Assembly (NCBI GenBank): GCA_001025035.1
Contig: LCZK01000008.1
Coordinates: 186,001 to 250,000, forward strand
From: Actinobacteria bacterium IMCC26207
GTDB taxonomy: Bacteria > Actinomycetota > Acidimicrobiia > Acidimicrobiales > Microtrichaceae
Reading direction: 5' to 3'
Length of the DNA stretch: 64,000 nucleotides
The notes beneath the pieces were generated by a model. It did not search any database, was not told where the DNA came from, and saw nothing but the letters and a program-made list of their open reading frames with translations. A program made the translations under genes and the position numbers. Positions 26,330 through 40,507 of the stretch are shown here, one piece after another (within the stretch, counting starts at the first letter, position 1; each line of letters begins with the position of its first letter).

Positions 26330-27061
26330 TCAGGTTGGCGGAGGAATCATAAACAAATTGTGTGAACGGTGCCTGCTTGGATCGAGCGGAACAATCTGAT
26401 CTTGTTGCGCCACGCTGACGGTGTAGCCCAATGATTCAAACAATTCACAGGAGAACCTTCGATTCTCTGGCTCAACGAGTTCGGCATAGACCAGGGGTTG
26501 ACAACTCCGCAGAAGCCCTAAGCCTCCGGCAAAGACGAACTGCTCAAATCCCTCAACATCAATCTTGATTCCGTCAACCTGAACGCCCTGGAGTTCTACA
26601 AGATCATCGAGACGTTCTTGGGGAACCGTATAACGGTGCCCTACGACCTCTTGGCCGGGTTGGACGACATGGCTCAGGCCCTGCATGCGAACGTGCTGCT
26701 GTTCTGGCATCACCATCTCAAGCTGTCCAGAGCTTTCGCCCAGTGCCATATGGTGCAAGGTCACGTTTTCTAGTTTGAAGTGCGCCACGAGTCGCGTGAG
26801 CGCCCGAAAATTCTCGGGGATTGGCTCAAACGCATGAACATGCCCAGACCGAACGCGTTTCGCAATCAGCACCGTCATGATTCCAATATTTGCCCCAATA
26901 TCTAACACGGTCGACTGCTCGCTCATACGGCTGATGAGTTGCAGAACATCGCGTTCGTTGGGATCCCATCGCAGTGTCTTTGTCTTGAACCACGCGAACA
27001 AGAACAGGTAGCGCTCAAAGCCAAAGATTCGCTGCAGCAGACTCTGAACTAGGCGTTTCAT
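26330..27061 (-). CDS. FkbM family SAM-dependent methyltransferase
   Basis: Methyltransferase of 243 residues. Motif I is VLDIGANIGIMTVLIAKRV, followed by HAFEPIPENFRALTRL (acid at the end of strand 2 and the Asn-rich FkbM block), VTLHHMALGESSGQLEMV, DGIKIDVEGFEQFVFAGG (the FkbM IDVEGxE signature) and VYAELVEPENRRFS. FkbM proteins O-methylate sugars or polyketides; here, next to glycosyltransferases, methylation of a polysaccharide sugar is the sensible guess. I chose the ATG at 27061, with AAAGGATC upstream, over the ATG at 27163, which would add a Ser-rich stretch overlapping the preceding glycosyltransferase gene. Confidence 0.88.
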   Translation of the reverse strand: MKRLVQSLLQRIFGFERYLFLFAWFKTKTLRWDPNERDVLQLISRMSEQSTVLDIGANIGIMTVLIAKRVRSGHVHAFEPIPENFRALTRLVAHFKLENVTLHHMALGESSGQLEMVMPEQQHVRMQGLSHVVQPGQEVVGHRYTVPQERLDDLVELQGVQVDGIKIDVEGFEQFVFAGGLGLLRSCQPLVYAELVEPENRRFSCELFESLGYTVSVAQQDQIVPLDPSRHRSHNLFMIPPPT

Positions 27062-27149
27062 GACAGGATCCTTTTCGAATTTGCTGCTTGCGGTGCTACC
27101 GGTGGAGCGAGAAGGAGAGGCAGAGGCGGAGCGAGAGCCTGAGGATAAT

Positions 27150-28328
27150 TCATTCGGGAACATTGCGAGCGAAAGCCGAAATCAGGCTGTCCCCGACTGC
27201 TTGCCAGCTATAACGGCTCTGCACCAACTGCCTGCCAGCTGTAGAGATGCGGTCATACAGTTCTGGCGATGTCAGGAGCTGCATTGTCTGATCGGCGAAC
27301 TCCTGAGCAGTAGACGCAATCAAGATTTCTTCGCCGGGGATTGCTCCAATTGCAGAATTCACGAGTTCAGTGGTCACGCAGGGAACCCCCATAGACATGG
27401 CTTCCAAAATCTTGTTTTGTAGTCCCGCACCAATCACGAGCGGCACCACCATGATTCTTCCCCGCTCGTAAGCGGACCGGATGTCATCTAGCCATCCGCT
27501 CACCTCAATGCCTATGCCTTGAAGTTGTTGCACTGACTTGGTAGGACGCGCGCCCGCAATCAGTAGATCTGTCTGCGGCCGTGCACGCCGAACCAGTGGG
27601 AGGATCTCAGAAACCAGAGTGGTCACCGCATTCACATTTGGCGGGTAGCCCATGTTTCCGACAAAGAGAAGGTCTCGCTGATCTGTAGGCATGTTCCGAG
27701 AAGAAAAGAATTCGGTATCTACCCCATTGCGCACAATCTGGACCTGTTCCGAGCCTGGGAAGCCCAGCAAATCACGATCCTGCTCCGAGATAATCACCTG
27801 GGAATCAAACCAGCCAAATGCTTGCTCCTCATAGCGAGCAATCCTTCGCGCTTCAAAGGCAAAAACCCACCGAAGCCACGGTGGGGATTGGTCTGCCCGG
27901 CGCTGCATAGAGGCACTGAACGCGTCCTGGTAGTCAAGAGTTCTAGGAACCTGGCTTCCGCGGCCGAATGTGGCAGTGCGGATCAACTGGCAAAAGATGT
28001 GATCAGGCTTCTCCTCTGCGATGATCCGGTCGATTTTTCTTGCTGCTGTGGCAGAGGAGAAATACCCCACCTGCAGCGGCCGACCCCGCAGGACTGCTAG
28101 CAGGGTGGACCAGACTGTGGTCAGGCGAGACCTAGAAATCACGTGGATATTGCTACAACAATCAGTAGCGACTTTCTGCAGGGCATCCGGGTCGACTGCA
28201 CCCTCAGACAGGGCCACAAGGGTCACCTCATGCTGCAGGGAGAGTTGCCGAATCTGGTGATACGCGCGCAGCTTGTCGCCGCGTTCAAGCGGATAGGGAA
28301 AGCGCGAGGTAATGACGAGCAGCTTCAA
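27150..28328 (-). CDS. Glycosyltransferase, GT4 family
   Basis: GT-B glycosyltransferase of 392 residues. It starts MKLLVITSRFPYPLERGDKLR, the donor-independent first loop seen in exopolysaccharide glycosyltransferases, and contains VTLVALSEG, the linker EQVQIVRNGVDTEFFS, the strand DLLFVGNMGYPPNVNAV, and C-terminal VPLVIGAGLQNKILEAMSMG with the nucleotide-sugar Glu, then PCVTTELVNSAIG. It likely adds a sugar to the lipid-linked repeat unit assembled by the sugar transferase upstream. The next gene in the transcription direction is the FkbM methyltransferase. Start at ATG 28328; the 80 bases to the sugar transferase contain no recognisable gene. Confidence 0.9.
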   Translation of the reverse strand: MKLLVITSRFPYPLERGDKLRAYHQIRQLSLQHEVTLVALSEGAVDPDALQKVATDCCSNIHVISRSRLTTVWSTLLAVLRGRPLQVGYFSSATAARKIDRIIAEEKPDHIFCQLIRTATFGRGSQVPRTLDYQDAFSASMQRRADQSPPWLRWVFAFEARRIARYEEQAFGWFDSQVIISEQDRDLLGFPGSEQVQIVRNGVDTEFFSSRNMPTDQRDLLFVGNMGYPPNVNAVTTLVSEILPLVRRARPQTDLLIAGARPTKSVQQLQGIGIEVSGWLDDIRSAYERGRIMVVPLVIGAGLQNKILEAMSMGVPCVTTELVNSAIGAIPGEEILIASTAQEFADQTMQLLTSPELYDRISTAGRQLVQSRYSWQAVGDSLISAFARNVPE

Positions 28329-36715: not shown

Positions 36716-37494
36716 GGTGCATCAAGGCCATAGAACTGCAGAGCGGTCGCTGTGGTCTCGTTGGCAACTATCGAGAGTCCAACCTCGTGCAGACGAGCAA
36801 TCTCTGCGCCAATCAGACCAACCATGGCAGGGGTATTCGGCTTACCGCGATGCGGCACGGGTGTGAGGAACGGCGAATCGGTCTCTACCATGAGTGCACT
36901 CAAGGGAGTGCTGCTCACTGCAGAACGAACGTCATCGGCACTGGGAAAGGTCACGATCCCGCTGATGGAGAGCAGCGCTCCACGCTCAATACAGCCAGCA
37001 GCCTCATCTACTCCACCTGTAAAGCAATGAAACACCGTGCGAGTTGGAATCGACTCGGCATCAAGGATCTCAAAGGTCTCTTCCCATGCATTGCGCGTAT
37101 GAATCACCAGCGGCAGGTCATACTCATGCGCCAAGGCGATCTGCTGAGCGAATACCTTGCGCTGAATCTGTCGCGGCGCATGGTCGTAGTGATAATCCAG
37201 ACCACATTCACCAATGGCGACCATCTTGGGATTCCCTGCGTTGGCCTTGACGACCTCAAGCACTGCGTCGAGACCTTCAGCAGCATCGTGTGGATGGAGA
37301 CCAACTGTGGCCCAAACCTGCTCGTACTGTGCTGCAAGTGCCACACAGGAAGCCGAACTCACGGCATCGGTCCCGACGGTAATCATCTGAGTGACCCCAG
37401 CCTCGGAAGAGGCTTCAAGAACTGAACCTAGGCTCGAGTCATCTTCAAGGTGGCAGTGGTTATCAATCCACTGCAAGCTCGGCGTTAGAGACAT
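36712..37494 (-). CDS. tatD: TatD family metal-dependent hydrolase
   Basis: Metal-dependent TIM-barrel hydrolase of 260 residues, active on DNA 3' ends or, in some members, on D-aminoacyl-tRNA. All ligands are visible: DNHCHLED (first HxH), TVGLHPHDAAE, IGECGLDYHYD (Glu), PLVIHTRNAWEE (His), TVFHCFTGG (His) and METDSPFLTPVPHRG (Asp). The ATG at 37494 is used; an upstream frame to 37626 runs over the preceding gene's end and lacks family similarity. The stop overlaps the small membrane protein start. The 3' end of the 999-residue fusion gene lies 13 bases upstream. Confidence 0.94.
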   Translation of the reverse strand: MSLTPSLQWIDNHCHLEDDSSLGSVLEASSEAGVTQMITVGTDAVSSASCVALAAQYEQVWATVGLHPHDAAEGLDAVLEVVKANAGNPKMVAIGECGLDYHYDHAPRQIQRKVFAQQIALAHEYDLPLVIHTRNAWEETFEILDAESIPTRTVFHCFTGGVDEAAGCIERGALLSISGIVTFPSADDVRSAVSSTPLSALMVETDSPFLTPVPHRGKPNTPAMVGLIGAEIARLHEVGLSIVANETTATALQFYGLDAP

Positions 37495-37507: not shown

Positions 37508-40507
37508 CTAGTTGTTGATACACACGATTCCCTCAGCTCCAGCAGAAAACAGCTGCACTGTACCCGCTGCATCCTCGGCATCTTGAGTTCGGGTGATTCC
37601 CTCGGTGACTGCCAAGACCGAGGCATCGCTCCATTCCATGAGAGCGCTCACTGCGGTGTCACCAAGGGTTGGCGGCGCGAGCACCACAACAACTACCTCG
37701 GGGCTGATCTGATCTAGCCACGCCCCATCGATGACCTTCTGCTTGCGAGCCGAACGCGACCCGGCTGGGATAAAGCGCAACTGATCTACATCTGCTCCAA
37801 GGAGTTGGCGAGCTTCTCTCGGGAGGCGACGAGCCGAGACGGGGCGCATGACTCCTTGCACTGTCAGATTGCCTTCGTTTCCGCTCAGCAATTCGGCTTC
37901 TAGGTCAGCCACACCTTTGGATCCGCGCCGCGCCAATCTTGCACTGAGCGCCGGATCAGCGAGCTGCGCATCTACTAGGACCACTCTGCGCCCATCAGCG
38001 ACACAGGCTGCGGCTAGACCAGTCGCCAATCTGCGTACCTCAACCCCATCTCTTGGAGCAGCGACCACAATCCGACTCGGGAACTCTCCAGATGTGCCGG
38101 CGTCTACCGCCGAGGTAATGATCTGTTCGAGTTGTTTCGGGGTGGACCTTGTCTTCTTGCGGGTTCCACCGCTGACGTGGGTCCATTTGCGCAGACCCGT
38201 GAACTCATAGACGTCATCTCGAGGGTCGACCCTTGGGAACCGACTCCCAGCCATAACCAACCCCGTTGCGAGCAGCCCTGCAGATGCGATCGAGACCAGC
38301 ACAATCCAAAATACAGAAGACTGCTCTTGGCCTAGGACTGCATCCTGATAGGCGCGAATGTAGAACGCACCCGAGTAGTACCGAGCCTCACCCGGGATCG
38401 TTGGGCGCAACTCGTCTGCAACCTGCGCCTCTGCGGCAGTGCGACTGTTTTCGAAAATATTGTCCATTGCTGCAACCAGATACGGCTGCACGGCCAGCAC
38501 ATTGGCTTGGCTGGTATCGCTGTATTGCAACTGGACTAACAAGCCCAACTTGGGGCGGGTGGCTGACATCCGATCGCTGATTTCCCGAACAGATAGGTCA
38601 ACCCCGGACAGAGTTTTGAGTTCCTGGGCGTACGCAAGAGAAACCACCGTGGTCAACACGCCCTGCAGTCGCTCACGGTCAATCAAGACATACTCACTCG
38701 GCACGGAGCGGTCGAGGCGTGGCGGGATCACTGCAGCAGTTACGGTGTAGTGAACGGGAAGCATGCTCGCAACCACCCCGCCAAAAATGCCGCCAATCAG
38801 AGCCGCAGCAACAATCTGCCGGCGTGCCCGTGTAGAAAACCGCAAGTCCCACCTTGCGAGCGGAACCTCGTCCTCATCAAGCGGCGAGGACTGTTGGAAT
38901 GAGCCTTGACCAACGTACGGGTCGAGTTCACTTCCGGGCACGAGCCGCTCAGTCTGCCAGCGGTCAACCTCTCCAGACAGGGTTTGCTCATCAGCTGCAG
39001 AGTCAACCCATGTGTCAGTCCACGTACCAGGCCGCGACGCAGGCGAACTCTTCGAGTAAGCCTCGGGCGAGATTCTCTCAAGTTCGTGACCAACCTGGGG
39101 TTCCTCTGCTTGCCCAACTCCAGACATGCCTTTCCATCGAGACCTCCAAGAAGGAACCTGCAAACCAGCAGCGAGCCCAATGACTGCCCAAGCCAACTTG
39201 TTATTCAGGAGCGGCAAGAACATGGAACTTGAAAGCACCGGCAGCAGCATCACAAACAACGTGATGGAAATCTCCTTCATCTGTAACCACCGCGGCCGTA
39301 ACAGATTCAGCATCGTCATCAAGAAGATTGAGACAAACATCAAGAGCCCAATGAAACCGAGGTCTCCCGTGACGTCCATCCACGTGTTATGAGAAGACAC
39401 GTCGTCTCGGTCCTCATTGAGTTGCTGGCTACCTGGGGTCACAAGCAAGTTCGGCGAGATCAGAAGCCGCAGTTGACCAAACCCGTAGCCAGTCACCGGC
39501 TGCTCCTGAATCAACGCGCTTGTCACCGTCCAAAAGTCCAAGCGTCCGGCACCGCGATCAGAGAATCCGCGCTCCAAATTATTTGGATTGGCAATGAACC
39601 CAACCCCAAAGGCCATGACTGCAAGCAATAAAGCGCCGATAGCCACCCGGGACCGACGACCAGCGCTCAGTCCGGGCCGAGTCACCATGGTTCCAAACAG
39701 GGCAATCGCTGCACCGATTAGCCCCGAACGGCTGCCCGCCCCGGCTGCACCAGCCAATACTGCAAACAGCGTAAAGGTGTACCACCACTTGATCTTCACG
39801 GTGGCGGCGTGTCTGCGGTAATAGACCGTGAGCGGGATCATTGAGGCCATCAACAATCCAAAGAAGTTGGGATCCTTTCCGAATCCAACAGAGCGCGTTC
39901 CCAAAAACAAGGCCAGGATTCCTAGCGAGGCGCCAAATAGTCCGCCGATCCAGTAGGCCCGAAGAAATTTGTGCAGCGCTCGGTGACTGTCCACCATGAG
40001 CGCAGTAATGCAAAAAAACACCACGCCGAGCATGAACTGCCCCATGGTGTTCAGAAACGAAAGTGCCTCAGCAGACCAAAGCCCACTAGCAGCAGCCCAG
40101 GTCAGCAACACGAACACCGGCGCCCAGGTCCGCAAGGGAAGTGCGGGCGGACGCCAACGTTGAACTACCAGTTTGTAAATCATGAGCAGGCCGGCCACGA
40201 GGGCAACAGCACGCCCCATTCGAATCGGTCCTGCTCCAAGGCCATCAAAGTGGATCAGGAAAGCAACTGCTTCATAAAAGAACAGTCCTCGTTGCCAGAC
40301 CCAGATGGACAGGCCGACTGTAAGTGCGATCACCACCAGAACCAGCACACCCCACTTATTGAAGATCGCAAAGATCAGTAGCGGGATTGCGGCGATCGCA
40401 AGGCCAATGGCCGCAGCGGTGCTCCAAGGTGGTCGCTGCCGCGGCGCTTGGGTCGTGGTCGGCTGATCGATGGTTTGCAACCGGTTCCCCCAAGTTCGGG
40501 CCGCCAC
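37508..40507 (-). CDS. O-antigen polymerase/ligase-like protein fused to Wzz and tyrosine-kinase-like domains
   Basis: 999-residue fusion. Residues 1-465 form about twelve membrane helices of the O-antigen ligase/Wzy_C type with AGAGSRSGLIGA (near 264) and the extracytoplasmic SSHNTWMDVTGDLG motif (near 374). A charged linker to 565 follows. Residues 570-760 are a Wzz-like co-polymerase unit: helix AALIGGIFGGVVASMLPV, an extracytoplasmic region, and helix FWIVLVSIASAGLLATGL near 739. Residues 800-999 have the BY-kinase fold, with VVAAPRDGVEVRRLATGL in place of Walker A (no GK[ST]) but VVLVDAQLADPALSARL retained. The end TEGITRTQDAEDAAGTVQLF resembles that of the Wzz protein at 33 kb. It would join polymerisation and length control in one chain. 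Start GTG; no clear ribosome site. Confidence 0.88.
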   Translation of the reverse strand: MAARTWGNRLQTIDQPTTTQAPRQRPPWSTAAAIGLAIAAIPLLIFAIFNKWGVLVLVVIALTVGLSIWVWQRGLFFYEAVAFLIHFDGLGAGPIRMGRAVALVAGLLMIYKLVVQRWRPPALPLRTWAPVFVLLTWAAASGLWSAEALSFLNTMGQFMLGVVFFCITALMVDSHRALHKFLRAYWIGGLFGASLGILALFLGTRSVGFGKDPNFFGLLMASMIPLTVYYRRHAATVKIKWWYTFTLFAVLAGAAGAGSRSGLIGAAIALFGTMVTRPGLSAGRRSRVAIGALLLAVMAFGVGFIANPNNLERGFSDRGAGRLDFWTVTSALIQEQPVTGYGFGQLRLLISPNLLVTPGSQQLNEDRDDVSSHNTWMDVTGDLGFIGLLMFVSIFLMTMLNLLRPRWLQMKEISITLFVMLLPVLSSSMFLPLLNNKLAWAVIGLAAGLQVPSWRSRWKGMSGVGQAEEPQVGHELERISPEAYSKSSPASRPGTWTDTWVDSAADEQTLSGEVDRWQTERLVPGSELDPYVGQGSFQQSSPLDEDEVPLARWDLRFSTRARRQIVAAALIGGIFGGVVASMLPVHYTVTAAVIPPRLDRSVPSEYVLIDRERLQGVLTTVVSLAYAQELKTLSGVDLSVREISDRMSATRPKLGLLVQLQYSDTSQANVLAVQPYLVAAMDNIFENSRTAAEAQVADELRPTIPGEARYYSGAFYIRAYQDAVLGQEQSSVFWIVLVSIASAGLLATGLVMAGSRFPRVDPRDDVYEFTGLRKWTHVSGGTRKKTRSTPKQLEQIITSAVDAGTSGEFPSRIVVAAPRDGVEVRRLATGLAAACVADGRRVVLVDAQLADPALSARLARRGSKGVADLEAELLSGNEGNLTVQGVMRPVSARRLPREARQLLGADVDQLRFIPAGSRSARKQKVIDGAWLDQISPEVVVVVLAPPTLGDTAVSALMEWSDASVLAVTEGITRTQDAEDAAGTVQLFSAGAEGIVCINN

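Follow-up and report, generated by a model that had tools for sequence, protein, structure and literature searches.

Can a polymerase of the Wzy/WaaL type, its co-polymerase and a kinase-like domain be carried by a single polypeptide chain, and how would such a chain work? The question is raised by an uninterrupted reading frame on the minus strand of the 64,000-nucleotide window (the whole stretch of DNA that was analyzed). The frame spans positions 37508-40507 and comprises 999 codons plus stop when counted from GTG, while stops occur throughout the opposite (+) strand of the same interval. The true start is probably the TTG at 40480-40478 (residue 10), giving a product of ~990 amino acids, because conservation begins at residue 10 (LQTIDQP/VQTIERP), which is also the first residue of several orthologous frames. 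The parts of the frame are as follows.

37508-40507, minus strand: the whole fused gene
39164-40429, minus strand: Wzy/WaaL-type polymerase membrane domain, residues 27-448 (AlphaFold helices 27-448; Foldseek match to WaaL)
39332-39772, minus strand: Pfam Wzy_C (PF04932), residues 246-392 (E 3e-14, 53.5 bits, cut-off 31.7)
38885-39121, minus strand: disordered linker, residues 463-541 (pLDDT <50)
38198-38866, minus strand: PCP (Wzz/Wzc-like) domain, residues 548-770 (AlphaFold model; Foldseek match to Wzc; profile match to Wzc 422-600)
37511-38140, minus strand: BY-kinase-like P-loop domain, predicted pseudokinase, residues 790-999 (structure match, profile, motif check)

Domains of the fused protein

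Pfam called Wzy_C alone in the fused protein. The PCP and kinase parts stayed below cut-off, with Wzz at E 0.096 over residues 560-600, and the tyrosine-kinase profile TIGR03018 matched weakly (E 5e-6); of the profile matches expected in the first-pass annotation, only that to Wzy_C was thus obtained over its threshold. Using the fused protein as a single query, a PDB sequence search returned no match. Since Pfam alone is blind to the PCP and kinase parts, a family profile and a structural model were needed. When compared with solved structures, the profile of 18 fused relatives (alignment A1) matched BceF with an E-value of 1.6e-13 and Wzc with 9e-10, the Wzc match starting at the second PCP membrane helix and extending into the kinase domain. 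The AlphaFold model of the fused protein had a mean pLDDT of 75.1 and a pTM of 0.73, and its Foldseek comparison with the PDB gave Wzc with an E-value of 5e-10 over 574 columns covering both C-terminal domains, WaaL (7tpg) at the N-terminus with 1.8e-6, and the CapAB/Wzc kinase domains with TM-scores by target of 0.65-0.74. Based on the family profile, the model and the Foldseek matches, the three domains are real, and it is near certain that one chain unites a WaaL/Wzy-type membrane polymerase, a two-helix PCP and a BY-kinase-like P-loop fold. The three-domain reading of the 999-residue protein was thereby borne out, including the PCP and P-loop folds expected from a structure prediction on the whole protein. 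The topology also appears coherent: the polymerase part would end on the cytoplasmic side and lead through the disordered linker to the two PCP membrane helices and the cytoplasmic P-loop domain.

The Wzy_C region holds the motifs GSRSGLIG, DRGAGRLDFW and SSHNTW, and the first and last of these, from which an O-antigen ligase/polymerase had originally been read, lie inside the Pfam match. Residues R260, R322 and H373 are invariant in the alignment of the 18 fused members, all of which (18/18) match Wzy_C, and the fold is WaaL-like. As the Wzy_C family also includes ligases, the choice between polymerase and ligase rests on context, and the flippase and initiating transferase of the locus make polymerase the likely function of the N-terminal domain.

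In the PCP part, membrane helices at residues 559-581 and 732-754 flank an extracytoplasmic domain of ~150 residues, and a cytoplasmic BY-kinase fold follows in the same chain, which is the layout of a PCP-2a (Wzc-like) protein. The linker in front of it measures 32-103 amino acids in relatives and has conserved ends (SxxxRWxGY ... LARWDL). A conserved internal start, from which the fused gene could also yield PCP as a separate product, was looked for in the linker and not found.

The Walker A lysine (GK[ST]) and the Walker B aspartate are absent from 18/18 fused members, as is the C-terminal tyrosine cluster, with 0-1 Tyr within the last 30 residues of every member. The EX2RX2R ring/oligomerization motif is missing from every fused member and from the separate protein PCP2 described below. 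On the other hand, the Walker A' aspartate D846 is kept and invariant. As all catalytic signatures have been lost in all members, there is a strong sequence-based case that the domain is a non-catalytic pseudokinase. The "BY-kinase-like" label of the first-pass annotation holds for the fold (Foldseek, profile), but an active kinase was dropped from consideration. The domain agrees with BY-pseudokinases of the EcpK/HfsB type in that the fold is kept, the catalytic motifs and Tyr tail are lost and the partner PCP is present, here within the chain. Two canonical BY-kinase co-polymerases of the same genome, L140 (G000:C7:254206) and L141 (G000:C4:55530), served as an internal control: both exceed the TIGR01007 cut-off and keep their motifs intact, including EX2RX2R.

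The locus and the stoichiometry of the polymerase

The cluster around the fused gene contains the following further genes.

36712-37494, minus strand: TatD-type DNase gene, likely ATG at 37494, 13 bases after the fused gene stop; order conserved
32939-34282, minus strand: PCP2, a separate PCP plus predicted pseudokinase, 447 aa (~25% identical to the fused PCP part; Foldseek match to Wzc, E 1.9e-16)
31324-32916, minus strand: Wzx-type flippase (Polysacc_synt_3, E 1.2e-48)
28409-29956, minus strand: initiating sugar-phosphate transferase (Bac_transf, E 8.1e-67)
27150-28328, minus strand: GT4-type glycosyltransferase of the same cluster (E 6.4e-25)
26330-27163, minus strand: FkbM-type methyltransferase of the same cluster (E 2.8e-16)

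PCP2 lies ~3 kb from the fused gene, is syntenic in nearly all relatives, co-occurs with the fusion in nearly all genomes that carry it and shares the fold of the fused PCP part, as judged from the Foldseek match. Its kinase motifs have degenerated as well, and only G013, G022 and G032, which branch early, retain a Walker B-like aspartate; a GKT near the C-terminus of PCP2 in G012 is a chance occurrence that does not stand at the Walker A position. The recurring order in the family is RsmI-PfkB-(methyltransferase)-[Wzy-PCP]-TatD-KsgA-IspE-PCP2-Wzx-GNAT-initiating transferase, so the housekeeping genes TatD, KsgA and IspE separate the two PCP genes. Between TatD and KsgA, positions 36356-36715 (minus strand) encode a protein of 119 residues that is rich in Ser/Thr and has a hydrophobic segment at its N-terminus; a short stretch of this protein is conserved at the same position in several relatives. 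The KsgA-type methyltransferase (35402-36349, minus strand) has an internal low-complexity run, DTGDTGDTGDTGDSGDTE.

The first-pass annotation had supposed that the fusion fixes polymerase and co-polymerase at a 1:1 ratio. This is doubtful, given a separate PCP2 so close by in nearly all relatives and a measured Wzy-Wzz ratio far from unity: in the enterobacterial common antigen system WzyE and WzzE occur at ~1:8, with WzyE in the ring lumen (PMC10030265). Since Wzy occupies the lumen of that complex, a ring of fused chains only is hard to build; with eight of them, the lumen would have to take up eight polymerases instead of one. Judging from its co-occurrence with the fusion and from the enterobacterial stoichiometry, PCP2 would be the natural candidate for the remaining ring seats.

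Taken together, the best explanation, to which we assign a probability of roughly 0.6, is that the gene encodes a naturally fused polymerase/co-polymerase of the Wzx/Wzy surface-polysaccharide pathway that anchors a ring completed by PCP2 and acts independently of phosphorylation. More tentatively, one Wzy-PCP chain might seed each mixed ring and PCP2 fill it, both pseudokinase types setting chain length without a phosphorylation cycle. The Wzy part would then join lipid-linked repeat units on the outer side of the membrane once they have been flipped, and the covalently attached PCP part would recruit PCP2 copies into one ring. With one fused chain per PCP2-completed ring, each ring would hold exactly one polymerase, at its center. 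Instead of tyrosine phosphorylation, the assembly of the ring or a ligand bound at the pseudokinase would determine chain length and release. As EX2RX2R is absent from both the fused protein and PCP2, ring formation would rest on other parts.

The fused chain could instead work alone at 1:1, every polymerase carrying its own regulator, and PCP2 serve another polymerase or an export step. The covalent link itself favors such an arrangement, as does the divergence of PCP2, which at only ~25% identity to the fused PCP part forms a clade of its own, and the genome encodes two further Wzy_C proteins. However, these Wzy genes are found on other contigs, with the canonical BY-kinases L140 and L141 15 and 41 kb away, whereas in almost every relative PCP2 neighbors both the flippase and the fused gene. 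Moreover, a single Wzy sits in the lumen of known PCP rings (PMC10030265). We therefore consider the 1:1 chain unlikely.

Slightly less likely again is that the fused protein is a ligase that moves glycans, whether complete or still partial, onto an acceptor (wall, lipid or protein) and uses its PCP part as a scaffold. The solved structure closest to the N-terminal domain is indeed the WaaL ligase, and the NCBIfam match of this part is a putative O-glycosylation ligase, although below its cut-off. On the other hand, the examined part of the cluster yielded no other Wzy-type polymerase, a fused co-polymerase is most readily understood if the enzyme is a polymerase, and two relatives weakly match the O-ag_pol_Wzy profile (best E 0.004).

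Distribution and history of the fusion

The family scan gave a match to the query in 30 out of 33 genomes. Within this family of freshwater-type actinobacteria, 18 genomes carry a full-length fused frame, with identities from 87 down to 25% and in most cases a shared syntenic location. The domain order recurs among relatives, an outcome that the first-pass annotation had named as support; further fused frames, in G003, G017, G025 and G031, are cut by contig ends and were kept outside the 18. Between G000 and G008, the dN/dS values of the Wzy, PCP, kinase-like and linker parts were 0.014, 0.06, 0.13 and 0.17, respectively, and are approximate because synonymous sites approach saturation; at the level of sequence, all parts of the protein are under purifying selection.

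That the fusion is an artifact in which faulty assembly or sequencing merged two genes, a possibility suggested by the separate, overlapping wzy and pcp frames of G013 and the frame broken inside the Wzy part in G021, and already held improbable at first, can be set aside because of the 18 full-length frames and the low dN/dS, to which the conserved linker ends and the single-contig 4.66 Mb genome of G005 can be added. In G021 (L075, G021:C10; completeness 55%) both the Wzy part (two frames) and PCP2 are interrupted, and sequencing errors in that assembly are the probable cause.

In G013 the two frames, which overlap by 11 bases, occupy this locus as well, flanked by PfkB and TatD, and the split may be a single-base error. 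Adjacent wzy and pcp frames with a one-base overlap were also seen in G001 and, outside the family, in G311. In a tree of the PCP parts, all fused members, the separate PCP of G013 and the divergent fused G022 form one clade (support 0.92), PCP2 forms its own (0.998), and the canonical kinases stand apart. The sequences would fit either two fusions or one fusion with a later split.

Protein and profile searches of samples of the order (298 genomes), class (295) and phylum (297), in which the best two candidates per genome were scored, showed the fusion only in this family. No match to the fused protein was obtained among plasmid records. Two public contigs titled "Bifidobacterium breve" (L035, L036) encode the fused protein at 97% identity; the titles seem mislabeled, since the isolate names look like those of environmental MAGs.

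Several long frames elsewhere were rejected as Wzy-PCP fusions. Two long Wzy_C frames in the phylum proved to be Wzx-Wzy single chains of ~1000 residues from another actinobacterial family, namely L130:1871-4873 (minus strand, G595; Polysacc_synt E 1.5e-27, Wzy_C E 6.4e-24) and L131:2536-5490 (minus strand, G752; 1.7e-25 and 2.1e-22, respectively). The long Wzy_C frame of G742 overlaps a separate Wzz/kinase frame, that of G700 is probably over-extended, and the long kinase-like frames of G105, G041, G447, G071, G125 and G331 have no Wzy in the same frame.

Relation to known systems

The best structural match of the C-terminal half is the PCP-2a protein Wzc of E. coli (PDB 7nhr), with which it shares the order of helix, extracytoplasmic part, helix and cytoplasmic BY-kinase fold. 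Unlike Wzc, the fused protein carries a polymerase in front, has an extracytoplasmic part of a shorter type and lacks the kinase motifs, tyrosine tail and EX2RX2R. With WaaL and the Wzy_C family it has in common the fold, the Pfam domain and the Arg and His motifs, whereas WaaL bears no C-terminal PCP and pseudokinase. EcpK/EpsV of Myxococcus and HfsB/HfsA of Caulobacter likewise combine a PCP with a BY-pseudokinase that has lost the Walker motifs and Tyr tail (PMC12004946), but there pseudokinase and Wzy are separate proteins, while the fusion unites the three in a single polypeptide. A pseudokinase as such is no novelty, as EcpK has been demonstrated to be a BY-pseudokinase that is required for making the polymer and works together with its PCP independently of phosphorylation, a phosphorylation-independent control has been proposed for EcpK-type systems, and single-chain PCP-pseudokinases, such as SMc01795 of Sinorhizobium, have been cited (PMC12004946). 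In the WzyE-WzzE system polymerase and co-polymerase must also act together, although they are encoded by two genes, with no covalent link and no kinase fold (PMC10030265).

In the open literature searched we found no description of a Wzy-Wzz or Wzy-Wzc fusion; the Wzy-PCP-pseudokinase fusion is real, conserved and apparently undescribed so far. It is unusual because the one measured system has about eight regulator copies per enzyme. According to a 2025 review, the stoichiometric interplay of Wzy and its co-polymerase is yet to be described, and Wzy is hard to isolate (PMC12004945). A natural single chain kept across a family implies permanent contact between the working polymerase and co-polymerase, and it offers both a handle on Wzy for structural work and a way to test whether a ring accommodates a single polymerase or more. 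It is also further evidence that co-polymerases can make use of the BY-kinase fold in a non-kinase role. The mixed ring, if true, would be a new architecture for Wzx/Wzy polymerization.
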